Part shown: positions 3,027 through 45,070 of the stretch, one piece after another
Layout of the letters: each line of letters starts with the position of its first letter
Position numbering within the stretch: the stretch's first letter is position 1
Assembly (NCBI GenBank): GCA_017461475.1
Contig: JAFTXX010000015.1
Location: 1 to 53,391, forward strand
Reading direction: 5' to 3'
DNA: 53,391 nt
From: Clostridia bacterium
GTDB lineage: Bacteria > Bacillota > Clostridia > Oscillospirales > CAG-272
Notes under the pieces: generated by a model
Told to the model about the DNA's origin: nothing
Databases searched by the model: none
The model's input: the letters and a program-made list of their open reading frames with translations, nothing else
Position numbers and translations under genes: made by a program

Positions 3027-3053
3027 GTAGGGGCGATTAATAATCGCCCCTAC
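3027..3053. repeat. 27-bp perfect palindrome (GGGCGATTAATAATCGCCC family)
   Basis: Arms GTAGGGGCGATTA and TAATCGCCCCTAC around a single A. A shorter copy of the same sequence lies at 11833-11856. It sits between pstS and aroQ, two minus-strand genes; no gene is visible in this gap (2884-3120). Confidence 0.8.
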
Positions 3054-3091: not shown

Positions 3092-3122
3092 AAAAAAGGC
3101 TGCATTTCTGCAGCCTTTTTTC
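3092..3122. terminator. Terminator of the aro operon
   Basis: AAAAAAGGCTGCA / TGCAGCCTTTTTT with a TTTC loop. Stem and T run work in either direction, but it lies at the 3' end of aroQ on the minus strand and overlaps its last codons. Confidence 0.85.
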
Positions 3123-3549
3123 ATATTGTTTCAACTAAATAATCCACAGCCTCGAGGTAACCAACAAAGCCGTGACCTGCTATGGTCTTCTTTGCAACGA
3201 GTGACACATAAGAGTGCTTGCGGAACTCCTCGCGGGTGTTGATGTCAGAGATATGCACCTCAACGGTTGGAATTCCGACGGCTTTGAGCGCGTCGAGAAT
3301 GGCGACGCTTGTGTGCGTATACGCGGCGGGGTTTATAACTATTCCGTCAATTTTGCCGTATGCTGCCTGAATTTCGTCAACTATCGCGCCCTCATGGTTT
3401 GACTGGAAGAACGAGACCTCGACGTTTTTCTTTTCGCAATGCGCTTTTATTATATTGAGCAGACCTGCGTAGGTATCTTTGCCGTAGATATCGGGTTCGC
3501 GGATGCCCAGCATGTTGAGATTCGGACCGTTTATAACTAAAATCTTCAT
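3121..3549 (-). CDS. aroQ: 3-dehydroquinate dehydratase, type II
   Basis: Third step of the shikimate pathway (3-dehydroquinate to 3-dehydroshikimate), cytoplasmic, normally a dodecamer. The 142-residue product begins KILVINGPNLNMLGIREPDIYG, the type II signature with the catalytic Tyr. It also has SNHEGAIVDEI, INPAAYTHTSVAI and VEVHISDINTREEFRKHS, containing the catalytic His. The start is taken at the ATG at 3549, which overlaps the aroEK stop as ATGA; a longer frame upstream would lie inside aroEK. Last gene of the operon. Confidence 0.96.
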   Translation of the reverse strand: MKILVINGPNLNMLGIREPDIYGKDTYAGLLNIIKAHCEKKNVEVSFFQSNHEGAIVDEIQAAYGKIDGIVINPAAYTHTSVAILDALKAVGIPTVEVHISDINTREEFRKHSYVSLVAKKTIAGHGFVGYLEAVDYLVETI

Positions 3550-4778
3550 TTTGACGCTCCCACTTCTGTCATTATTGCGTTTACGCACGCTTCCGCCGTG
3601 CCGCAGGGTTCAATGGTTATGTCAGCAAATCCCTCATAAATGGGGCGGCGTATTTCGTACAGTTTTTCAACCGCGTTTTCGCCCGCCGAAAGCGGTCTGC
3701 CGCCTTTTGCAAGGCTTTCAAGTTCGCGCTTGATATAAACGGCTTTGCCGTTTTGGTGGAGTGCTATGCGGTTTTCCTCACGCAGTACGGTGCCGCCGCC
3801 ACAGGCGATAACCACGCCGCTTTTTGCGGATATCTCCTTTGTCACTGCAGTTTCAACGTCGCGGAAATATTCCTCGCCGCGCTCGGCGAAAATCTCGGGA
3901 ATGGATTTGCCCTCGCGCTCAACAATAAGTTTGTCAATGTCGAAAAACTCGCGTCCCATTACCTTTGCAAGCATCTTGCCCGCAGTGGTCTTGCCGCAGC
4001 CGGGCATGCCTATAAGCACAATATTTTCAAGTTCGCCTTGCACCCTGTTTACGATGTTTACCATCTCGGCACCGCTGTGCTTTATACCGCGGAAATATCT
4101 GTCGGCGAACGCCGCCTGCGCGACAAGCATAGTGAGACCGCCCGTGCAGGGGATGCCGAGACTCTCTGCCTGGCAGATAAGCCGTGTGCGAAGCGGATTG
4201 TAAACTACATCGACAACGCCCGAAAGGTTCGGGAACATTGTAAGGTCAACAAGTCTTGCGTCAATCTTCGGAAACATGCCGACGGGGGTAGTGTGAATGA
4301 TTATCTCCGCGTCGGACGCACGCTCGTAAAGGTTGTTGTAATTGAGTTCGAGGTCAAGGTCGGCAATGCGGACAGACTCAGCGCCCAGTTTTTTTGCCGC
4401 CGCGGTCGCGGTATGCGATGTACCGCCGCCGCCGAGAATGAGCACTTTTTTGCCCTTCATGTCAATTCCCGCGCGGTTGCACATGAAAATAAAGCCGTCA
4501 AAATCGGTATTGCAGCCGAACAGTTTGCCGTCGCAATTGGTTATGGTGTTGACCGCGCCTATCTCAATAGCCGCGCCGTCAAGCGCGTCACAGAGCGGCA
4601 TTACCGTCTGCTTGTATGGAATGGTTACATTAATGCCGTCAAACTCACGCGCGGCAAGAAAATCCGCAACCTCACCCTTTTCCTTTTCAAAAAGAGTATA
4701 ATTAGGATTGCCGAGCATGCCGTGAATCTTAGGCGAATGTGAATGCGGGAGTTTCTCTCCCAAAAGTCCGTATTTCAT
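3546..4778 (-). CDS. aroE: Fused shikimate dehydrogenase / shikimate kinase (AroE-AroK)
   Basis: A 410-residue bifunctional enzyme for two consecutive steps: 3-dehydroshikimate to shikimate (NADPH) and shikimate to shikimate 3-phosphate (ATP). Residues 1-245 are AroE: SHSPKIHG substrate motif, catalytic Lys in IPYKQ (about 56), NTDFDG with the catalytic Asp (about 92), GGGGTSHTA nucleotide loop (116-124) and GGLTMLVAQAA near its end. Residues 250-410 are the P-loop kinase: GMPGCGKTT Walker A (257-265), FFDIDKLI, FRDVE and CGGGTVLR. No stop or frameshift separates them. Ribosome site AAGGAG precedes the ATG. A MITE copy separates it from pheA. Confidence 0.95.
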   Translation of the reverse strand: MKYGLLGEKLPHSHSPKIHGMLGNPNYTLFEKEKGEVADFLAAREFDGINVTIPYKQTVMPLCDALDGAAIEIGAVNTITNCDGKLFGCNTDFDGFIFMCNRAGIDMKGKKVLILGGGGTSHTATAAAKKLGAESVRIADLDLELNYNNLYERASDAEIIIHTTPVGMFPKIDARLVDLTMFPNLSGVVDVVYNPLRTRLICQAESLGIPCTGGLTMLVAQAAFADRYFRGIKHSGAEMVNIVNRVQGELENIVLIGMPGCGKTTAGKMLAKVMGREFFDIDKLIVEREGKSIPEIFAERGEEYFRDVETAVTKEISAKSGVVIACGGGTVLREENRIALHQNGKAVYIKRELESLAKGGRPLSAGENAVEKLYEIRRPIYEGFADITIEPCGTAEACVNAIMTEVGASK

Positions 4779-4802: not shown

Positions 4803-5001
4803 GATGTTTAGTGGCTGAGCAAACATCTCCCCGCGAGATCCTTCACTGCGCCTGCGGCTCCGTTCGAGGATGACAAGCGGGGGTTGTTACAGTGCTATAA
4901 AAGATGCCTTTTTCAGCACTTTGCTTAAACCCGCCCTTGTCATCCTTGAGCGAAGCGAAGGATCTCGGGCGGAGATGTTAGTAACATAAACATTAATTTA
5001 T
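4803..5001. repeat. MITE-like palindromic element, copy B
   Basis: About 198 bp between pheA and aroEK inside the aro operon, with terminal ATGTTTAG / AAACATTAATTTA and the same internal arms as the other copies. It is almost exactly the reverse complement of copy C at 12578-12783, so the two form inverted repeats flanking the aro operon and deoC. The pheA stop codon abuts its edge. Confidence 0.88.
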
Positions 5002-6138
5002 CTATATCTCCGAGTAACAGCCGAGGAAGGTGCCGCCTTCGTATTCGGCGTCGAAAACGTCGAGGGTTTCGAGCAGTCCTTCGGCTTCAAGCGGTGCGTC
5101 AAAATCGAGGTAGAACATATATTCAAAGTCCTTGCCGGGGATTGGGCGGCTCTCTATCTTTGAGAAGTTTACGCCAAGGGCGGCAAACTTTGCAATTATG
5201 GAAAAGAGCGAACCGGGAACGTGCGGCAGAGTGAACATTATGCTGGTCTTGTTTGCGCCGGGGTAAATCTCAAGTTCCTTGGAAATGCAGATGAAACGGG
5301 TGTAGTTGTTGTCGCTGTTGGCGATGCCCTCTGCAACTACAGAGAGGTTGTAAAGTGAGGCGCACGCGGGATTGCAAATGGCGGCAACATCATCGCGGCC
5401 GCTGTCGGCAACCATACGCGCCGCAACCGCGGTGTTTGCGCACTCGGTGACTTTAACGCCGAGTTCCTTAAGGTATGCAGAACACTGTCCGATTGCCTGC
5501 GGGTGCGAGAAAACTTCCTTGATATTTTCAAGCTTTGCACCCTTCTTTGCAATAAGCGCGTGTTCAACGCGCAGTTTGATGCTTTTTACTATGTAGAACT
5601 TATGCTTTTTCATAAGGTCGTAGACCTCTGTTACGGAGCCGCGGAGATTGTTGCTTATCGGCAGAATTCCGTAGCGGCAAAGTCCGGTTGCGACCGCGCT
5701 AAAAACGTCCTCAAAGTTGGTCATAAACATGATGCTTGGGATAGAGAAAAGTTTTTCAGCCGCGTGTTGCGAATTTGCGCCCTCGGTGCCCTGGCACGCG
5801 ACGGTGCAGGTGGTGGGGAGAGTGGGCGCGGTATGCTGCGCCGCCGATTTTATAGTTTCGGAGAGCTTGCCGCCCTCGTAAATGCGCTTTGACTGGAGTG
5901 AGCGCGACACCTCAAAAAGCGTGTTGTAAAGCACCTTTGTGTAGGTCGCCATGCTGTCGTCCATGTCGGCGGTGAGTCTCGCAACTATCTCGCGCTCACG
6001 CGCGGGGTGAAAGACGGGAAGTCCGTTTGCCTTTTTATATGCTGCCATATTTGCGCAAAGCTCCATGCGCTCCTCAAACGCCGCCTTGATAGTGTCGTCG
6101 AGCGAGTCTATCTTCTGGCGAATTTCTTTCATATCCAT
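5002..6138 (-). CDS. pheA: Bifunctional chorismate mutase / prephenate dehydratase
   Basis: Converts chorismate to prephenate and then to phenylpyruvate for phenylalanine. The 378 residues hold an AroQ-type chorismate mutase (residues 1-90, EIRQKIDSLDDTIKAAFEER with KKANGLPVFHPAREREI). This is followed by a prephenate dehydratase domain (about 110-290, VACQGTEGANSQHAAEKLF) and a C-terminal ACT domain (about 295-378, SIMFTLPHVPGSLFSIIAKF, then KIESRPIPGKDFEYMFYLDF), which in this family binds Phe for feedback inhibition. The gene starts 1 bp after aroC ends; a second Met two codons later is an alternative start. Confidence 0.95.
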   Translation of the reverse strand: MDMKEIRQKIDSLDDTIKAAFEERMELCANMAAYKKANGLPVFHPAREREIVARLTADMDDSMATYTKVLYNTLFEVSRSLQSKRIYEGGKLSETIKSAAQHTAPTLPTTCTVACQGTEGANSQHAAEKLFSIPSIMFMTNFEDVFSAVATGLCRYGILPISNNLRGSVTEVYDLMKKHKFYIVKSIKLRVEHALIAKKGAKLENIKEVFSHPQAIGQCSAYLKELGVKVTECANTAVAARMVADSGRDDVAAICNPACASLYNLSVVAEGIANSDNNYTRFICISKELEIYPGANKTSIMFTLPHVPGSLFSIIAKFAALGVNFSKIESRPIPGKDFEYMFYLDFDAPLEAEGLLETLDVFDAEYEGGTFLGCYSEI

Positions 6139-6139
6139 A

Positions 6140-7219
6140 TCAGTTATTCCCTTCGAGTAAGTCTAAAATGCAGAGTGCCGCCGCCGCCTCAACGGCGGGG
6201 ACTGCTCTTGCGGCAACGCATGGGTCATGTCTGCCGTGTATTAAAAGAGTGGTGTTCTCTTTGGTTTCAAGATTAACGGTGTTTTGCTCTTTTAAAATAG
6301 AGGGAGTAGGCTTCATTGCCACGCGGAATATTATCGGCATGCCGTTTGTAATGCCGCCCTGTATTCCGCCACTGTTGTTGGTCGTAGTGACAACTTTTTC
6401 GCCCTCGTAAACGAACGGGTCGTTGTGCTCACTGCCGAGCATCTCGGTGCAGGCAAAGCCAGAGCCGAACTCAATTCCCTTTACCGCGGGAATTGCAAAC
6501 ATCGCGGATGAAATTTTGCCCTCGACGCCCTCGAAAAGCGGGCCGCCGTGACCTGCAGGCATGCCAATAACGGCACATTCGATTACGCCGCCGACGCTGT
6601 CGCCGTCTGCCTTTGCCGAAAGAATTGCCTCGCGCATTTTTTCACCCGCCGCGCCGTCAAGCACGGGGAAAGGCTTTTTGCCTGCCGAAAGCAGTGTGTC
6701 TTTGTCTATTTCAACAGCGTCAAAGGCAGTGTCCTTGACCCCCGCAACGCTTGCAAGGTGTGCGCCGATGTAAATGCCGCGCTTGGCAAGCAGTTGAAGC
6801 GCGATTCCGCCGCCTATGCAAAGCGGTGCTGTAAGTCTGCCCGAGAACGGGCCGCCGCCGCGGATGTCGTTTGCGCCGCCATAGCGGACGCTTGCGGCGT
6901 AGTCCGCATGTGACGGGCGCGGACGTACGCGCAGATCCGAATAGTCGCGCGAATGTTGGTCGGAGTTGTGAATAATTGCGGTGAGCGGCGCGCCTGTGAG
7001 GACGCCATCAACAATGCCGCACAAAAACTCGGGACGGTCAGGCTCCTTGCGCGCTGTCGATGTCGCGTCTCTGCCCGGTGCACGGCGCTCCATAAATGCG
7101 CACAGCTCGTCTATATCAATTTTCTCACCCGCGGGAAGTCCGCAAATTGTAGCGCCTATCGCCGCCGAATGAGACTCGCCGAATATCTCTATCTTAACTT
7201 TATCACCCATTGATGACAC
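6140..7219 (-). CDS. aroC: Chorismate synthase
   Basis: Last step to chorismate: anti-1,4 elimination of phosphate from EPSP, using reduced FMN. The 359-residue product has the signatures GESHSAAIGATICGLPAG, RRAPGRDATSTARKEPD, RPSHADYAASVRYG, RGGGPFSGRLTAPLC and GGIQGGITNGMPI. The GTG at 7219 is preferred because GGAGG lies 8 nt upstream; the ATG three codons on has no properly spaced site. The first codons overlap the end of aroA by 17 nt. Confidence 0.95.
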   Translation of the reverse strand: MSSMGDKVKIEIFGESHSAAIGATICGLPAGEKIDIDELCAFMERRAPGRDATSTARKEPDRPEFLCGIVDGVLTGAPLTAIIHNSDQHSRDYSDLRVRPRPSHADYAASVRYGGANDIRGGGPFSGRLTAPLCIGGGIALQLLAKRGIYIGAHLASVAGVKDTAFDAVEIDKDTLLSAGKKPFPVLDGAAGEKMREAILSAKADGDSVGGVIECAVIGMPAGHGGPLFEGVEGKISSAMFAIPAVKGIEFGSGFACTEMLGSEHNDPFVYEGEKVVTTTNNSGGIQGGITNGMPIIFRVAMKPTPSILKEQNTVNLETKENTTLLIHGRHDPCVAARAVPAVEAAAALCILDLLEGNN

Positions 7220-8474
7220 TGCATTTTCCTCCGAGTTTTTTTAAGTCCTCAAAAAATGTGGGGTATGATTTGTTTACGCACTCAGCGCCGCGGATTATCA
7301 CTTCGCCGCCCGCACGCTGTGACGCTACTGCCGCACACATTGCGATGCGGTGGTCGTTTGCCGCGTCAACCTCGCCACCCGTGAAATTTGATACGCCGTT
7401 TATCACAAAGCCGTCGTCGGTGCCTTCAATGTCCGCACCGAGCGCCTTTAGCATAGCCACGGTGGTTGCTATGCGGTCGCTTTCCTTTATTTTAAGGCGC
7501 GAGCCTCCGCTGATAACGCTCTTACCGTCTGCAAGGCAAAGCACGGTTGCAAGCGCGGGGAGCGCGTCGGGGATGTCCTCGCCGTCAAATCCAATGCCGT
7601 GCATGGCGGCATTTTCAACCGTGATGTCTGCGCCGCAAGTTACTTTTGCGCCCGCGGCTTTTATGATGTCAAGAACGCCCTTGTCCTTTTGCAGCGAATC
7701 GAGACGAAGTCCGCTTACCGTGAGCTTTTCGCCCACAACGCCTGCCGCAAGCCAAAATGTCGCGTTTGACCAGTCGCCGTCGGCGGTGTAGTCCGCTACT
7801 GCGCGGTAGGTCTGATTGCCCTTGACCTTGTAGCCGCCGTCAAACTTTTCGACCTCTATGCCAAAGCGCGAAAGCGTGTTCAAAGTCATATCTATATATC
7901 CCGCCGAAACCGCGGGGGTGGTGAGCCTTATTTCGCTGTCTCCGTCAAGCAGCGGGAGCGCGAAAAGCAGTCCGCTTATGTACTGCGAACTTACGTCGCC
8001 GCGAATGGAGTAAACTCCGCTTGTGAGTTTTCCGCATGTTGTAATTGGCAAAAATGCGCTCGAGCATTTTGTGCCGCGCTCTTCCATTGCACAACACAAG
8101 TCCCCAAACGGACGCTTTAAGAGTCCGTTTTTGCCCGTGAGTGTAAAACTGTCCGAGAGCGCCGCGGCAATCGGCAGTATAAGCCTTGCAGTTGTGCCGC
8201 ACTCGTGCGCGTCAAGCAGAGCGCCGCGCGGCATTTCGCAAATGCCTGTTACCACGGCGGTGTAATCGCCGTCAGCGCCGTCAATATCTATCGCCGCACC
8301 CATTGCCGAGAGCACGCGAACAGTTGCCGCAATGTCCTCGGAAAGCGTGGTGAAATGTACCGCCGAAATGCCTTTTGCAAGCGCCGCCGCCATAAGAAAA
8401 CGATGCACATCCGACTTTGATGAAATAGCGCGGATAGTTCCCGACAGTTTCGTCGGTTCAATGCGTATATCCAT
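7203..8474 (-). CDS. aroA: 3-phosphoshikimate 1-carboxyvinyltransferase (EPSP synthase)
   Basis: Transfers enolpyruvyl from PEP to shikimate 3-phosphate. At 423 residues it is of normal length. Visible motifs are ISSKSDVHRFLMAAAL near the N terminus, ECGTTARLILPIAAAL, SSQYISGLLFALPLL, DIPDALPALATVLC and LKIKESDRIATTVAMLKALGA. The LDAHECGTTAR loop differs from the LxxGNAGT form of class I enzymes, so inhibitor sensitivity cannot be read from it. The ATG overlaps the aroB stop by one base (TAATG). Confidence 0.95.
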   Translation of the reverse strand: MDIRIEPTKLSGTIRAISSKSDVHRFLMAAALAKGISAVHFTTLSEDIAATVRVLSAMGAAIDIDGADGDYTAVVTGICEMPRGALLDAHECGTTARLILPIAAALSDSFTLTGKNGLLKRPFGDLCCAMEERGTKCSSAFLPITTCGKLTSGVYSIRGDVSSQYISGLLFALPLLDGDSEIRLTTPAVSAGYIDMTLNTLSRFGIEVEKFDGGYKVKGNQTYRAVADYTADGDWSNATFWLAAGVVGEKLTVSGLRLDSLQKDKGVLDIIKAAGAKVTCGADITVENAAMHGIGFDGEDIPDALPALATVLCLADGKSVISGGSRLKIKESDRIATTVAMLKALGADIEGTDDGFVINGVSNFTGGEVDAANDHRIAMCAAVASQRAGGEVIIRGAECVNKSYPTFFEDLKKLGGKCSVING

Positions 8475-9523
8475 TATTTGCCCGCCTCGATAAAGTCTTT
8501 CACTTCGGTTCTGAGCACCTTGTGAATCACCGTGTTGCCGATTTCAAGCGGGATGATAAGGCTGATACTGTCGCCGCTTGACTTTTTGTCCGAAAGGGTG
8601 AGCGTGGCAAGCATATCGGTGTCGTAATCGGTCTTTGTAGGCAGACCGCAGGAAATGAGCGCATCCTCAATCTCCTTTGCCATGCCAACTCTCGCCATTC
8701 CCTTTTTCTCAGCGGCGCGGGCGATTATCGCAAGTCCCGTTGCAACGCCGTGACCGTGAGTCAAAGTGAACTCGCTTGCCGCTTCGACTGCGTGACCGAT
8801 GGTGTGACCGAGGTTTAACAGCATGCGCTGTCCGCGGTCAAACTCATCGCCAGAGACGATGTCGCGCTTTATCTCAACACAGCGTGCGATAAGCGCTTCC
8901 ATATCATTGTTTTTATAGTTTTTGACCTTGTCAAAAAGGTCGCGGTCGCAGATAACGCCGTATTTGAGCATCTCGGCAAGGCCGTCCTGCACGTTTACCT
9001 CTTTAAGCGTATCGAGCGTGTCGGTGTCGCACAAAACGAGGCGCGGCTGCCAGAACGCACCGCAAAGATTCTTGCCGCGTGAGAGGTCTACCGCGGTTTT
9101 GCCGCCTACCGATGAGTCAACCGCCGCAAGCAAAGTAGTGGGAACTTGCACATACGAAATTCCGCGCAGGAAAATAGCCGCGGCAAAGCCCGCCATGTCG
9201 CCGACAACGCCGCCGCCGAGCGCAACAATGATGTCGCTGCGGGTGAAATGCGCCTCTGCCATCTGCTCAAGCAGCGCTTCAATAGTGGAAATGCGCTTGC
9301 GCTCCTCGCCGTTTTCAAAAACGAAATTGCTGCAGGCAAATCCCGCATCTTCAAGCGACTTTGTAAGCTTTTCGCCGTAAAGCGGGAAAACTATGTCGTC
9401 CGAAACTATCATTGCCCTGTTACGGGGGAAAAGCGCGGCAATTTTCTCTCCCGCGCTTTCAAGTAAGCCTTTGCCGATATGTACCTCATACGAAGTGCTT
9501 GTGTTAACCTTGATTATCTGCAT
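8474..9523 (-). CDS. aroB: 3-dehydroquinate synthase
   Basis: Cyclises DAHP to 3-dehydroquinate with NAD+ and a divalent metal. The 349-residue product has GGGVVGDMAGFAAAIFLRGI, QVPTTLLAAVDSSVGGKTAVD and LNLGHTIGHAVEAASEF (metal-binding His), all diagnostic. The start is set at the ATG at 9523, giving the normal N terminus MQIIKVNTS; the frame runs upstream into tyrA without another plausible start. It lies 13 bp after tyrA. Confidence 0.96.
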   Translation of the reverse strand: MQIIKVNTSTSYEVHIGKGLLESAGEKIAALFPRNRAMIVSDDIVFPLYGEKLTKSLEDAGFACSNFVFENGEERKRISTIEALLEQMAEAHFTRSDIIVALGGGVVGDMAGFAAAIFLRGISYVQVPTTLLAAVDSSVGGKTAVDLSRGKNLCGAFWQPRLVLCDTDTLDTLKEVNVQDGLAEMLKYGVICDRDLFDKVKNYKNNDMEALIARCVEIKRDIVSGDEFDRGQRMLLNLGHTIGHAVEAASEFTLTHGHGVATGLAIIARAAEKKGMARVGMAKEIEDALISCGLPTKTDYDTDMLATLTLSDKKSSGDSISLIIPLEIGNTVIHKVLRTEVKDFIEAGK

Positions 9524-9536
9524 TTTTCTATCCTTA

Positions 9537-10373
9537 TTATAATTTCTCGGAGCGTATCTTTCTGTCGTTGCCCTCGCTGAGGAGAGTGTGCATTGCCTCG
9601 CGGTCGCCGTTGTCAAGCGCCGCCTTGAACTTTGAGAGGTTGCCGATAAGCTCGCCTATAACCTCGGAGAGGTTTTCGGTGTTCTCAAAGAAAAGCTCTG
9701 TCCACATATCCGCGTTGAGACGCGCGACGCGCGTCATATCCTTGAAAGAACCCGCGGAAAAGCCCTTGTGCTCGGTGGCGTACTGGCCGTGTACATACGC
9801 GCTTGACACAACGTGTGCAAGCTGGGATGTAAACGCGATAACCTTGTCGTGGTGCGCCGCGGTGGAAATCGTTATTCTGCCGAAACCTATCTCCTTAAAG
9901 AGCGTGCTTACGGTGTCAATTGCCTCCTGACTGTTGCAGTATTCGGGGCAAAGGATCATCGAAGCGCCGTCGAAAAGGGATGCGAAAGAGTGAGCAAAGC
10001 CGCTGTGCTCAATGCCCGCCATCGGGTGACCGCCGATAAAGTGAACGCCCGTTCCCTTTACAAGCTCGCCGAGCGCGGTGCACACCTCGGTCTTGATGCC
10101 GCAGGTATCAACTAAAATAGCGCCCTTTTTGAAATATTTTATATTCTCTTTTACAAAATCAATGGTAGCCGTAGGGTAAAGACCCATGATAATAAGGTCG
10201 CAATCTGCGACGTCGCTCGGCTTGCCGATCGACGCAATTGCGCCCGCTTCAAGCGCTTCTTCCGACACCGAGCGTGTGCGGTTGTAGCCTATTACAGTAT
10301 GCGAAGTGTAAAAAGTGATTGCTCTTGCAAGCGAACCTCCGATAAGTCCGAGTCCGCAGATAAAAATTTTCAT
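9537..10373 (-). CDS. tyrA: Prephenate dehydrogenase
   Basis: Oxidative decarboxylation of prephenate to 4-hydroxyphenylpyruvate, the tyrosine branch. The 278-residue product has an N-terminal Rossmann fold (KIFICGLGLIGGSLARAI). It also has the family motifs FIGGHPMAGIEHSGF and FTSQLAHVVSSAY. It has no chorismate mutase or ACT domain, so any feedback control must come from elsewhere. The start is the ATG at 10373 with GGAGAAG 3-9 nt upstream; an in-frame TTG four codons earlier would bury that ribosome site. Confidence 0.94.
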   Translation of the reverse strand: MKIFICGLGLIGGSLARAITFYTSHTVIGYNRTRSVSEEALEAGAIASIGKPSDVADCDLIIMGLYPTATIDFVKENIKYFKKGAILVDTCGIKTEVCTALGELVKGTGVHFIGGHPMAGIEHSGFAHSFASLFDGASMILCPEYCNSQEAIDTVSTLFKEIGFGRITISTAAHHDKVIAFTSQLAHVVSSAYVHGQYATEHKGFSAGSFKDMTRVARLNADMWTELFFENTENLSEVIGELIGNLSKFKAALDNGDREAMHTLLSEGNDRKIRSEKL

Positions 10374-10409
10374 TTTCTTCTCCAATTTAATTTAAACTTT
10401 TACTTTCTT

Positions 10410-10463: not shown

Positions 10464-11477
10464 TCAGTTGAATTTGTATGCGTAGGGGCGAACAGCTTCA
10501 ACAGCCTTCATTACATCGTCGAAAGCTTCGGGAGTGAGTGACTGTTTGCCGTCACAAAGTGCCTTTGCGGGGTCGTTGTGAACCTCAATGATAAGACCGT
10601 CTGCGCCAGCCGCGGTTGCCGCGATACACATCGGCTTTACAAGTCTTGCAACGCCGGTTGCGTGGCTGGGGTCAATGATTACAGGCAGATGCGAACGCTC
10701 TTTGAGCACGGGAATTGCACAAAGGTCAAGGGTGTTTCTTGTAGTCGCGGTCTCAAATGTACGGATACCTCTCTCGCAAAGCATAACGTTTTCGTTACCG
10801 CCCGACATGATGTACTCAGCGCTCATAAGAAGCTCCTCAATTGTGCTTGCAAGACCGCGCTTGAGAAGGATAGGCTTGTTTGTGTGACCGAGCGCCTTGA
10901 GCAGTTCAAAGTTCTGCATGTTACGCGCGCCGACCTGAATAACGTCAACATTGTCGAAAAGGGGAAGCTGCGATATGTCCATGATTTCGGTTACGATGGG
11001 AAGACCCGTCTTACCCTTTGCTTCTTCTAAAAGCTCGATTCCCTCGGCTCTCATTCCTTGGAATGCGTAAGGAGAAGTACGAGGCTTGAACGCGCCGCCG
11101 CGCAGCATTGCAGCGCCGCTTGCCTTGACAGCCGCCGCCACTTCGCAAATCTGGCTCTCGCTCTCGACTGAGCAGGGGCCCGCGATAACTGCAAAGTTTC
11201 CGCCGCCTATCTTTACTCCGCCGACTTCAACAACTGTGTCCTTGGGGTGGAACTTGCGGTTTGCCTTTTTGTAAGGCTCCTGAATACGCTTTACGTTTTC
11301 AACGATGTCAAGCGCACCGACAAGGTCGATGTCTATTTTGGATGTGTCGCCGACAAGTCCGAGAATGGTGGAGTTTACGCCCTCGGTCTTCTTGCTTTCA
11401 AGACCCTGCTCGCGGATCCAGTTTTCAAGCTGCTCAATCTGAGCCTTGCTCGCGTTTTGCTTAAGAATTACTACCAT
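10464..11477 (-). CDS. aroF: DAHP synthase, type I-beta with N-terminal regulatory domain
   Basis: Committed step of aromatic biosynthesis: PEP plus erythrose 4-phosphate to DAHP. The 337-residue protein has an N-terminal ferredoxin-like regulatory domain (residues 1-70, [20 protein letters not shown]) as in the Thermotoga/Bacillus I-beta type. The barrel follows with [61 protein letters not shown] and [16 protein letters not shown]. In that family the N-terminal domain gives Tyr/Phe inhibition; here that is inference. First gene of the operon, behind an attenuated leader. Ribosome site GGAGAA 7 nt before ATG. Confidence 0.96.
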
Positions 11478-11528
11478 AATGTTGTTCTCCGTTTTTCTAT
11501 ATTTTTTATTATAATATTAATTTTGTAA

Positions 11529-11567
11529 AAAATAAAGGGCTTACAGCATTTTTTTGCTGTAAGCCCT
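11529..11567 (-). terminator. Attenuator terminator in the aroF leader
   Basis: On the minus strand AGGGCTTACAGCA (11567-11555) and TGCTGTAAGCCCT (11548-11536) form a perfect 13-bp stem with an A6 loop, followed by TTATTTTTT. It lies 50 bp upstream of the aroF start codon and downstream of the promoter and leader peptide, so it must be read through for operon expression. Confidence 0.9.
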
Positions 11568-11671
11568 GTGTAAATTTATACTTTTATACATTCACAGATT
11601 TACGAACAGCAAAAGAAACCTTATCTACAAAATAGATAAAGCTAAAATAAAAGTATGCAAATGTGCTGTTC
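11552..11671 (-). promoter_or_regulatory. Three-state attenuator (1:2, 2:3, 3:4 pairings)
   Basis: Segment 1 (GAACAGCA, 11671-11664, inside the first codons of the leader peptide) is perfectly complementary to segment 2 (TGCTGTTC, 11611-11604). Segment 2 can instead pair as TTTTGCTGT (11614-11606) with segment 3 (ACAGCAAAA, 11560-11552), which is the 5' arm and loop of the terminator. A ribosome stalled at the Phe/Tyr codons would mask segment 1, freeing 2 to pair with 3 and preventing the terminator. This is the logic of trp/phe-type attenuation. Pairings are seen; the mechanism is inferred. Confidence 0.8.
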
Positions 11672-11688
11672 ATAGAAGTGTTATGCAC
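11584..11688 (-). CDS. Phe/Tyr-rich leader peptide of the aro operon
   Basis: A short frame upstream of aroF, too small for usual gene callers. From the ATG at 11673 it reads MNSTFAYFYFSFIYF..., 29 residues with six Phe and three Tyr, eight of the nine within codons 5-15, ending in TAA at 11584. An in-frame GTG at 11688 has the better ribosome site (GAAAGGG, 10 nt upstream) and gives 34 residues; the ATG has no clear site. Phe and Tyr are exactly the end products of the downstream operon. Control codons lie between the two halves of the 1:2 hairpin. Confidence 0.82.
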   Translation of the reverse strand: MHNTSMNSTFAYFYFSFIYFVDKVSFAVRKSVNV

Positions 11689-11721
11689 GGCTATTATGCC
11701 CTTTCGTTAAAATATGTAAAA

Positions 11722-11750
11722 AGTATAGCACCGTTTTCCATGTAAGTCAA
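11722..11750 (-). promoter_or_regulatory. aro operon promoter
   Basis: Minus-strand TTGACT (11750-11745), 17-nt spacer, TATACT (11727-11722): a near-consensus sigma-A promoter. Transcription would start near 11715, about 240 nt before aroF, leaving room for the leader peptide and attenuator. Confidence 0.85.
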
Positions 11751-11832: not shown

Positions 11833-11856
11833 CGGGCGATTAATAATCGCCCCTAC
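11833..11856. repeat. Palindrome, second copy of the GGGCGATTAATAATCGCCC family
   Basis: Core GGGCGATTAATAATCGCCC followed by CTACG, matching the 27-bp palindrome at 3027-3053 with one end lost. It lies between the divergent aroF leader and deoC. Confidence 0.7.
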
Positions 11857-11918: not shown

Positions 11919-12578
11919 ATGAGAAAATATACAGACAACGAAATACTTTCGCGCGTGGACCACACGCTGCTGCGCGTGGACGCGACATTTAACGAGGTAA
12001 AGGCTCTCATTGACGAAGCAATCGAAAACAATACCGCGTCGGTGTGCATTGCGCCGTCAATGGTTGAGCGTGCAAAGGAATACGCCGACGGCAAAGTTGC
12101 AATCTGCACCGTAATAGGCTTTCCGAACGGTTACAACACAAAGCTTGCAAAAGTTTTTGAAACCGCTGACGCTGTGGAAAACGGAGCTGACGAGATCGAC
12201 ATGGTTATAAACATCAGCGATCTCAAAGAGAAAAACTACGACGCAATTTCAAGTGAGATAAAAGCTGTTCGAATGGCGTGTGAGGGCAAAATTCTCAAAG
12301 TAATTATCGAGACCTGCCTGCTAACCGACGAAGAAAAGATAAAAATGTGCGAAATCGTATCCGAAAGCGGGGCAGACTATATCAAGACCTCCACAGGATT
12401 TTCAAAGGGCGGCGCGACTTTTGCAGACATTAAACTTTTTAGAGAGCACGTCAAAGGCATCAAAATCAAAGCCGCAGGCGGCATTAAAAGTGTGGGCGAC
12501 GCGGAAGAGTTTATAACCTTCGGCGCTGACCGCCTTGGAACAAGTTCGCTGATAAAATATATTAGAGAGGAAAAGTGA
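11919..12578 (+). CDS. deoC: Deoxyribose-phosphate aldolase
   Basis: Cleaves 2-deoxyribose 5-phosphate to glyceraldehyde 3-phosphate and acetaldehyde, the last step of deoxynucleoside breakdown. The 219-residue TIM barrel has VDHTLL at the N terminus, ICTVIGFPNGYNT, DEIDMVINI, LKVIIETCLL (Schiff-base region), YIKTSTGFSKGGAT and IKAAGGIKS with the catalytic Lys residues. Ribosome site AAAAGGAGAACCC precedes the ATG. Only a weak promoter (TGGAAA-17-TACAAT, 11783-11811) is visible upstream. A MITE copy separates it from deoB. Confidence 0.96.
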   Translation: MRKYTDNEILSRVDHTLLRVDATFNEVKALIDEAIENNTASVCIAPSMVERAKEYADGKVAICTVIGFPNGYNTKLAKVFETADAVENGADEIDMVINISDLKEKNYDAISSEIKAVRMACEGKILKVIIETCLLTDEEKIKMCEIVSESGADYIKTSTGFSKGGATFADIKLFREHVKGIKIKAAGGIKSVGDAEEFITFGADRLGTSSLIKYIREEK

Positions 12579-18910: not shown

Positions 18911-19016
18911 AGTGATATTATGTGCTGCGCAATAAACTGCCCGAAGGGCAATATAACTCGGCGAAGCCGAATATCACTGCGAAGCAATATAACTCGCCGA
19001 AAGGCGAATATAACTG
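18911..19016. repeat. Hairpin array with AGTGATATT/AATATAACT linkers (array 2)
   Basis: Starts with AGTGATATT and continues with small palindromes GCCCGAAGGGC, CGGCGAAGCCG, GCGAAGC and CGCCGAAAGGCG. These are separated by AATATAACT or AATATCACT, the complements of AGTTATATT and AGTGATATT. It has the same design as arrays 1, 3 and 4. It fills the gap between dus and the stalk-protein gene. Confidence 0.85.
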
Positions 19017-21780: not shown

Positions 21781-21955
21781 TAAAATGAAATCGTGAACAG
21801 AGTTCACGATGAAATCCAAAACAAGTTTTGGATGAAATCTTCGCTAACGCTCAGATGAAATTAAATCCGTCTTTAACCGCCGCAGGCGATTTCATCTGCG
21901 CAGCAGATTTCATCCATCGAAGATGGATTTATCCCGTCGTAAGACGGATTTAGTT
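21781..21955. repeat. Hairpin array with ATGAAAT linkers (array 3)
   Basis: Palindromes ATCGTGAAC..GTTCACGAT, ATCCAAAAC..GTTTTGGAT, ATCTGCGCAGCAGAT, ATCCATCGAAGATGGAT and TCCGTC..GACGGA. They are joined by GAA on the left and TTC on the right, giving the linker ATGAAAT and its complement ATTTCAT. The array changes orientation near its middle. It lies between the unknown gene and the tRNA terminator. Confidence 0.82.
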
Positions 21956-21990
21956 GAAAAAAGCCATTTGCTAAAGCAAATGGCTTTTTT
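21956..21990 (-). terminator. Terminator after tRNA-Trp
   Basis: Minus-strand AAGCCATTTGC, TTTA loop, GCAAATGGCTTTTTT immediately downstream of the tRNA-Trp 3' end. Confidence 0.88.
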
Positions 21991-44946: not shown

Positions 44947-45070
44947 GTTTAATCTTTGCGCGGCAAAGATTAAACGTGATATTTGCGCTACGCGCAAGTG
45001 ATATTTGTACTTTGGTACAAGTGATATTTCCGCTTCGCGGAAGTGATATTTGCGCTTGCGCGCAAGTTAG
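44947..45070. repeat. Hairpin array with AGTGATATT linkers (array 4)
   Basis: A 29-bp hairpin (GTTTAATCTTTGC / GCAAAGATTAAAC) followed by TGCGCTACGCGCA, TGTACTTTGGTACA, TCCGCTTCGCGGA and TGCGCTTGCGCGCA. Each is separated by AGTGATATT. The linker is constant while the palindromes all differ. It fills the gap between alr and the solute-binding-like gene and overlaps the alr stop by a few bases. Confidence 0.9.

Follow-up and report, generated by a model that had tools for sequence, protein, structure and literature searches.

The window, the whole stretch of DNA analysed here (53,391 nucleotides, contig JAFTXX010000015.1 of a Clostridia bacterium), carries an aromatic amino acid operon on its minus strand in the order aroF, tyrA, aroB, aroA, aroC, pheA, aroE-aroK, aroQ. 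Gene identities were assigned with NCBIfam profiles. Matches above cut-off were obtained for aroF (DAHP synthase of the B. subtilis type, 10464..11477; TIGR01361 and NF006421), aroB (3-dehydroquinate synthase, 8474..9616; TIGR01357), aroA (EPSP synthase, 7203..8474; TIGR01356), aroC (chorismate synthase, 6140..7219; TIGR00033) and aroQ (type II 3-dehydroquinate dehydratase, 3121..3588; TIGR01088). Matches to tyrA (prephenate dehydrogenase, 9537..10385; best E 7.7e-49) stayed under the curated cut-offs, and those to pheA (chorismate mutase/prephenate dehydratase, 5002..6138; best E 7e-60) just under. Shikimate dehydrogenase (residues 3-245) and shikimate kinase (residues 250-405) are fused in one frame as aroE-aroK (3546..4778; best E 4.3e-43, both parts under curated cut-offs), an uncommon arrangement. 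By these profiles the operon covers all seven steps to chorismate and both branch enzymes to Phe and Tyr, and no Trp-branch genes were found among its genes. A terminator-like 13-bp palindrome with A and T tracts, not assigned to a strand, stands at the operon end (3092..3121).

Some further elements were seen in the window. The gap between pheA and aroE-aroK is filled by an insert-like palindromic element (4822-4979) with terminal arms of 30 nt (87% complementary) and inner arms of 29 nt (83%), which resembles a REP-like or small non-autonomous mobile element; when 26 nt of it were searched against the window with up to 3 mismatches allowed, no second copy turned up. A 24-nt repeat (GTAGGGGCGATTATTAATCGCCC-like) is located near both ends of the aro operon, at 3027-3053, where it is palindromic, and at 11833-11856, with no other window copies at up to 3 mismatches. 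Three Gut-1 RNAs (RF01706) were detected above the gathering score (18946-19016, 21884-21956 and 44974-45054).

The leader locus is situated between a deoC-type gene (11919-12578, plus strand) and aroF, with all its features on the minus strand. Its promoter (11722..11750) reads TTGACT-17-TATACT with a TG ahead of the -10 (extended -10) and scores 10/12. A Shine-Dalgarno-like AAAGGG (11699..11704) is followed by an open reading frame of 34 codons (11584..11688), running from GTG (11688-11686) to TAA (11586-11584), whose predicted translation is MHNTSMNSTFAYFYFSFIYFVDKVSFAVRKSVNV with 6 Phe and 3 Tyr. The control codon block (TTT GCA TAC TTT TAT TTT AGC TTT ATC TAT TTT; 11629..11661) holds 5 of the Phe and the 3 Tyr codons. 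The sixth Phe codon (11613-11611) falls inside strand 2, so that only 5 Phe and 3 Tyr codons are placed where a stall would free that strand.

Four strands were delimited behind the leader start. Strand 1 (11664..11674), also covered by the region-level swap test below, pairs with the distal part of strand 2 (11601..11614), strand 2 through its proximal part (UUUUGCUGU) with strand 3 (11552..11567), and strand 3 with the last arm of the intrinsic terminator (11527..11567). The three mutually exclusive pairings of the sequence-only reading were found exact: 11671-11664 with 11611-11604, 11614-11606 with 11560-11552, and 11567-11555 with 11548-11536. The 1:2 pairing reaches further (11674-11664 with 11611-11601), and folding added a second, inner 12-bp stem to this hairpin (11617..11643; 11643-11632 with 11628-11617), which crosses the later Phe/Tyr codons. 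The terminator is a perfect stem of 13 bp with 7 GC pairs and a U tract behind it. The leader region folded to a minimum free energy of -57.6 versus -32.6 +/- 3.55 for dinucleotide shuffles (z -7.0; 0/200 as low). The consensus promoter, the short frame with six Phe and three Tyr codons and the perfect terminator before aroF had likewise been described correctly from the letters, the GTG start at 11688 being an addition. The earlier statement that the leader residues are the end products of the operon is borne out by its complete shikimate steps and by tyrA and pheA, through which these residues are the two amino acids served by the operon's own terminal enzymes. By sequence, the locus holds what a leader-peptide attenuator is made of: a frame with start, Shine-Dalgarno site and stop, with predicted translation, end-product codons, exclusive pairings and a terminator.

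For conservation within the genus, five other genomes were searched. aroF was present in four, and leader frame, Shine-Dalgarno site, promoter and strands were kept in 4/4 of these. In an alignment of five rows, TTGAC and TGCTAnACT of the promoter and a GAAAGG at the Shine-Dalgarno site were invariant. Behind the latter, position 11688 is GTG or ATG in 5/5 rows, and position 11673 is ATG in 2/5 (CTG, TTG and TCG in the rest); GTG 11688 was therefore preferred as start to the internal ATG. Changes inside the Phe/Tyr block were, by eye, mostly from Phe to Tyr. The covariation check proposed with the sequence-only reading was run on the three pairings. For 3:4, all pairs were kept with both-sided changes in 2/13 (13/500 shuffles as high), whereas 1:2 (95.7% paired over 23 pairs, 1 pair with both sides changed) and 2:3 (100% paired, no both-sided changes) did not exceed shuffles. 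The latter two hardly vary, since the five sequences are too alike, and genus covariation says nothing there; within the genus, covariation thus weakly suggests pairing for 3:4 alone.

For a wider survey, 218 aroF upstream regions were chosen by similarity to the window's aroF. Group A comprised 80 loci, the best of at least 595 matches in genome contigs. Group B comprised the window's relatives (52 of 61 matches listed, among them L081, the window's own copy). Group C was a phylum sample: from 337 genomes with a match, 86 regions were taken among the best matches listed rather than at random, and some genomes are represented by a second copy as well. A leader was called where a short frame within 400 nt of aroF had at least 6 Phe/Tyr in 12 codons. 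Two loci (L004 and L088) share identical upstream letters, and two short upstream stretches (L059, 91 nt; L185, 178 nt) were counted as leaderless.

Phe/Tyr-rich short frames were found in 131/218 regions (A 62/80, B 38/52, C 31/86). Shuffled sequences gave 4.0, 4.6 and 4.2%, and the reverse strand 7.5, 5.8 and 2.3%. Frames rich in other residue pairs were not comparable: Ile/Leu frames reached at most 42% versus 30% in shuffles, Lys/Asn, Ser/Arg and Ala/Val frames at most 17% (Ala/Val up to three times its own shuffles), and Phe/Trp frames, a pair that includes Phe, 6-14% versus 1-2%. Both Phe and Tyr were present in 130/131 leaders and each at least twice in 126/131; Trp occurred as well in 30/131. 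The leader loci include those of two cultured relatives, Angelakisella massiliensis (L070) and Anaerotignum neopropionicum (L041). With 38 of the 52 relatives' aroF regions (window included) carrying a leader and 2/52 a T-box motif, the window's arrangement, supposed earlier to be unusual for a Clostridia-like genome, is not rare among its relatives.

An intrinsic terminator was found behind 113/131 leaders, mono-shuffles giving mostly none; in the other 18 the scan found no terminator after the leader. Three doubtful leaders, which are probably not leaders, were kept among the 131 (L077, which looks like the end of an upstream gene, L128 and L131). Their removal leaves 128 leaders, 112 with a terminator. 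Strong terminators no more than 150 nt from aroF were present in 108/131 regions with a leader and 17/87 without (shuffles 1 and 0). Terminators kept without a Phe/Tyr frame had been named as evidence against the sequence-only reading: within the genus there was none, but farther out there are these 17. Three of them have a T-box motif and about four a Phe/Tyr frame just under threshold; about 10 have neither a T-box motif nor a Phe/Tyr frame near threshold. Among dereplicated loci, a Shine-Dalgarno-like site was scored at 91/96 leaders by a loose rule with no control set. Where 2:3 pairs clearly (40 dereplicated loci), strand 2 starts at a median of 16 nt past the Phe/Tyr block, which leaves room for a stalled ribosome.

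Two single regions of the survey were of separate interest. A leaderless region by the Phe/Tyr rule with a strong terminator (L214, genome G397) has a Trp-rich frame, MKEKSWYPRWLLWYGKWCRLCHKN, starting 355 nt before aroF, perhaps a Trp-sensing leader. The stretch ahead of one aroF gene of genome G068 (L149) carries a glmS ribozyme at 399-553 (95.9 bits).

Since cross-genus alignment was unreliable, a swap test was used, in which the duplex energy of a region with its own partner was compared with that obtained with partners from other loci. Regions rather than exact strands were swapped: region 1 began 25 nt ahead of the leader start and stopped close to where the Phe/Tyr block ends, region 2 covered the rest up to the terminator, whose 5' arm and loop made up region 3 and whose 3' arm was region 4. 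From the 131 leaders, 18 without a terminator and 2 by length or distance rules were removed, and the remaining 111 were dereplicated to 96. Own partners gave -21.1 versus -8.5 expected for 3:4 (z -36.0; own partner in the best 5% in 93/96), -13.6 versus -10.3 for 2:3 (z -13.2; 27/96) and -32.7 versus -22.5 for 1:2 (z -23.1; 61/96). The control pairing 1:3, needed by no model, gave no excess (-8.5 versus -8.7, z +0.9; 2/96). With the letters of one partner reversed, the excess dropped to z -3.7 (1:2) and -2.7 (2:3), values that are not zero, so that part of the swap signal is local composition. Single-locus tests were weaker (p 0.05 or less for 2:3 in 48/113 and for 1:2 in 39/113). Judged by predicted duplex energies, the average pairing in 1:2, 2:3 and 3:4 is more stable between own partners than between swapped ones, and in this sense the strands coevolve. 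In a few loci other antiterminator letters than the common UUUUGCUG were noticed by eye: AGAGUCU with GAAGGCUC in L174 and L176, and CUAAUGAGC with (G)CUCAUUAG-like partners in L146, L171 and L179 (single-locus p 0.03 to 0.17 for these five).

The order of Phe and Tyr codons was analysed in the blocks of the same 96 loci. Alternations between the two residues numbered 384/633 versus 325 +/- 11 in shuffles of the same residues, 0/2000 of which reached this value. The Tyr share of blocks varies like a binomial, and the Phe-only blocks (3/96 versus 0.9 expected) are at odds with a strict rule of two amino acids. The alternation is in keeping with selection for sensing Phe and Tyr alike along the whole stall window, where either amino acid alone would presumably suffice.

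We are confident that the locus is a ribosome-mediated transcription attenuator which responds jointly to charged tRNA-Phe and tRNA-Tyr. RNA polymerase would start near 11714, as judged from the promoter, and transcribe the leader. While Phe and Tyr are plentiful, a ribosome would run through the frame and strand 2 would be covered by it or, after its release, be paired with strand 1; strand 3 would then pair with strand 4 and transcription would end before aroF, with an expected product of roughly 185 nt. With Phe or Tyr short, the ribosome would stall among the interleaved codons and open the 1:2 hairpin. The 2:3 pairing would then form and block the terminator, and transcription would continue through the entire aro operon, with tyrA and pheA among its genes. 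The sequences show which parts are present, that they are conserved and that the strands coevolve; ribosome stalling and termination in vivo are the expected consequences. The attenuator reading given earlier thus holds up, with frame, terminator and pairings recurring in relatives and strands that appear to coevolve. The locus is a real attenuator of an ordinary kind, which very probably opens the operon only when Phe or Tyr is short.

Other explanations were weighed against this attenuator. The least improbable, to which we would nevertheless give little credence, is a metabolite- or protein-sensing RNA (a riboswitch or an antiterminator-protein site) in which the right shoulder of the hairpin acts as antiterminator and the frame is incidental or secondary. 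It draws on the trpB motif (RF04312), which aligns over its full length to the window leader with 30.8 bits (E 0.012 and 0.0087). This score is far below the gathering score of 59, and the alignment pairs 11631-11623 with bases other than those of the conserved hairpin. The motif had no match at E up to 0.1 in 20 other leader loci searched together, a weak match in 1/59 relatives' genomes and none at E 0.001 in the window's own genome, and it was rejected as the identity of the leader. The recurrence of the Phe/Tyr frame far outside the genus also argues against a riboswitch.

Slightly less probable again is a leader that serves as a functional small peptide, or merely couples translation to aroF, ahead of a plain 5' terminator. 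C-terminal leader residues (FAV, FAA) do recur in the genus and beyond. Behind such residues, a UUUUGCUG-like stretch was found in strand 2 of 37/96 loci, in all three reading frames (labels approximate), with a complement-like match in the terminator 5' arm or loop in 18/37. Because it occurs in every frame and stands past the leader stop codon in 14/37, it is apparently kept as RNA and not as peptide. A conserved C-terminal peptide motif was accordingly discarded, RNA strand 2 being the better explanation. For simple coupling, the leader stop is too far away: in dereplicated loci it lies a median of 36 nt before the terminator, which itself stands between leader and aroF.

T-boxes, in which uncharged tRNA is sensed directly by the RNA, are common at amino acid genes in Bacillota, but at the window locus such control is scarcely credible and was ruled out, since RF00230 did not reach its gathering score anywhere in the window and had no match up to E 5 in the leader. 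T-boxes were found in 12/12 genomes searched at E 0.001 (11 over cut-off), with one match in the window's own genome; the leader is therefore not used for want of T-boxes. In the survey, a T-box motif was present in 6 regions and coincided with a Phe/Tyr leader in 0/218. Rfam scans located a T-box before aroF in 4/40 leaderless regions, L162 (genome G060), L166 (G092), L168 (G070) and L199 (G287). For G060 and G092, two aroF copies each were scanned and a T-box was seen at one only.

Phe/Tyr leaders were also followed into other phyla, starting from leaders in loci with Lentisphaerae and Treponema titles (labels set from L071, Victivallales, L035, Treponema, and L073) and sampling the class of the one and the family of the other. 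All 59 Lentisphaeria genomes and 56 of 80 Treponemataceae genomes had a match, and the best 30 matches of each were taken; one locus (L255), whose match began at residue 88, was dropped. Among these best matches, a leader was found in 17/29 Lentisphaeria and 19/30 Treponemataceae aroF regions (1 and 1 on the reverse strand). The 36 leaders include four that look doubtful by eye (L228, L254, L259 and L272). A terminator followed 25/36 versus 2/36 shuffled. In 21 dereplicated loci, the swap test gave z -7.5 for 2:3 and -5.0 for 1:2 (control 1:3, z +0.5; reversed controls -2.9 for 2:3 and -1.6 for 1:2). Many Treponema-family leaders (L269-L286) look Tyr-heavy by eye, with runs such as VYFYYYYW, and may shift the sensor toward Tyr.

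In a quick aroF tree, Lentisphaerae, Treponema and Thermoguttaceae rows stood among Bacillota rows, with many forks weak. This suggests, as a lead only, a transfer of the leader with the operon. On this tree, built with FastTree from 138 aroF proteins, 23 changes of the leader label are required, 13 of them forced by starred branches (shuffled mean 29.0; 2/500 shuffles as low). No origin is claimed, since the label shifts with the threshold and the rows had been selected for their resemblance to the window.

A wider proposal, which we regard as evenly balanced between true and false, is that all these leaders form one widespread class of two-amino-acid attenuators. In such a class Phe and Tyr would have been interleaved by selection so that either shortage opens the shikimate operon. 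In Clostridia-like bacteria, aroF genes of this type would rely on it as their chief alternative to T-box control; the class would extend with coevolving strands to Lentisphaeria and Treponemataceae, and perhaps travelled with the operon between phyla. Ribosome-dependent attenuation has been described mainly for Proteobacteria and Actinobacteria. The present data suggest that gut Clostridia-like bacteria, and at least two groups besides, commonly control the synthesis of aromatic amino acids in this way. The aroF leaders offer a clean system for asking when evolution settles on a leader peptide and when on a T-box for one and the same gene. They also offer a natural sensor with two inputs and a testable codon order.

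Related systems are in print. The Fig. 6b legend of Stav et al. 2019 (PMC6429828), who studied five genomes including that of Clostridium novyi, lists two uORF candidates that contain Phe and Tyr codons and are associated with shikimate genes. They resemble the window's leader in these codons and gene context and, set beside it by description, may well be of the same kind; the text passages of that paper do not state their genome or gene, pairings or distribution. Directly upstream of aroF, the uORFC-13-1 motif of Acholeplasma combines a terminator with a uORF containing at least one Phe codon (PMC8632094, 2021). Unlike the window's leader, as far as the descriptions allow comparison, its 24 representatives come from Acholeplasma and environmental sequences only, and the passages available leave Tyr codons unmentioned. 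In Bacillota, His leader peptides have been described as ribosome-type attenuators in place of T-boxes (PMC2965389, PMC9413887); they differ in amino acid (histidine) and genes, and 6 B. cereus group, 5 Eubacteriales and 6 Erysipelotrichales species are named (PMC9413887). The trpB motif of Firmicutes and Fusobacteria is considered a strong riboswitch candidate by its authors, who keep a classic attenuator possible (PMC11109978). It shares with the window's leader the hairpin with an antiterminator shoulder, the following terminator and the occurrence in Firmicutes, and differs in its sub-threshold match, proposed riboswitch function and other genes.

With the reports of Stav et al., the Acholeplasma motif and the His leaders, the kind is known, also for the aro pathway and possibly for Clostridia, and this too speaks against the rarity in Bacillota assumed by the sequence-only reading. 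The main-text passages of this literature yielded no description of the breadth across Bacillota, Lentisphaeria and Treponemataceae, nor of Phe/Tyr interleaving, strand coevolution or T-box exclusion at aroF. Going by these passages, the distribution and codon design of the Phe/Tyr leader are apparently undescribed. The pheA/pheST, his and trp leader-peptide attenuators of Proteobacteria represent the classical kind. By design, the window's leader is like them in its end-product codons, its 1:2, 2:3 and 3:4 alternatives and its terminator before the first structural gene. Unlike them, it has Phe and Tyr codons interleaved and would control the common pathway and both terminal branches in one operon.
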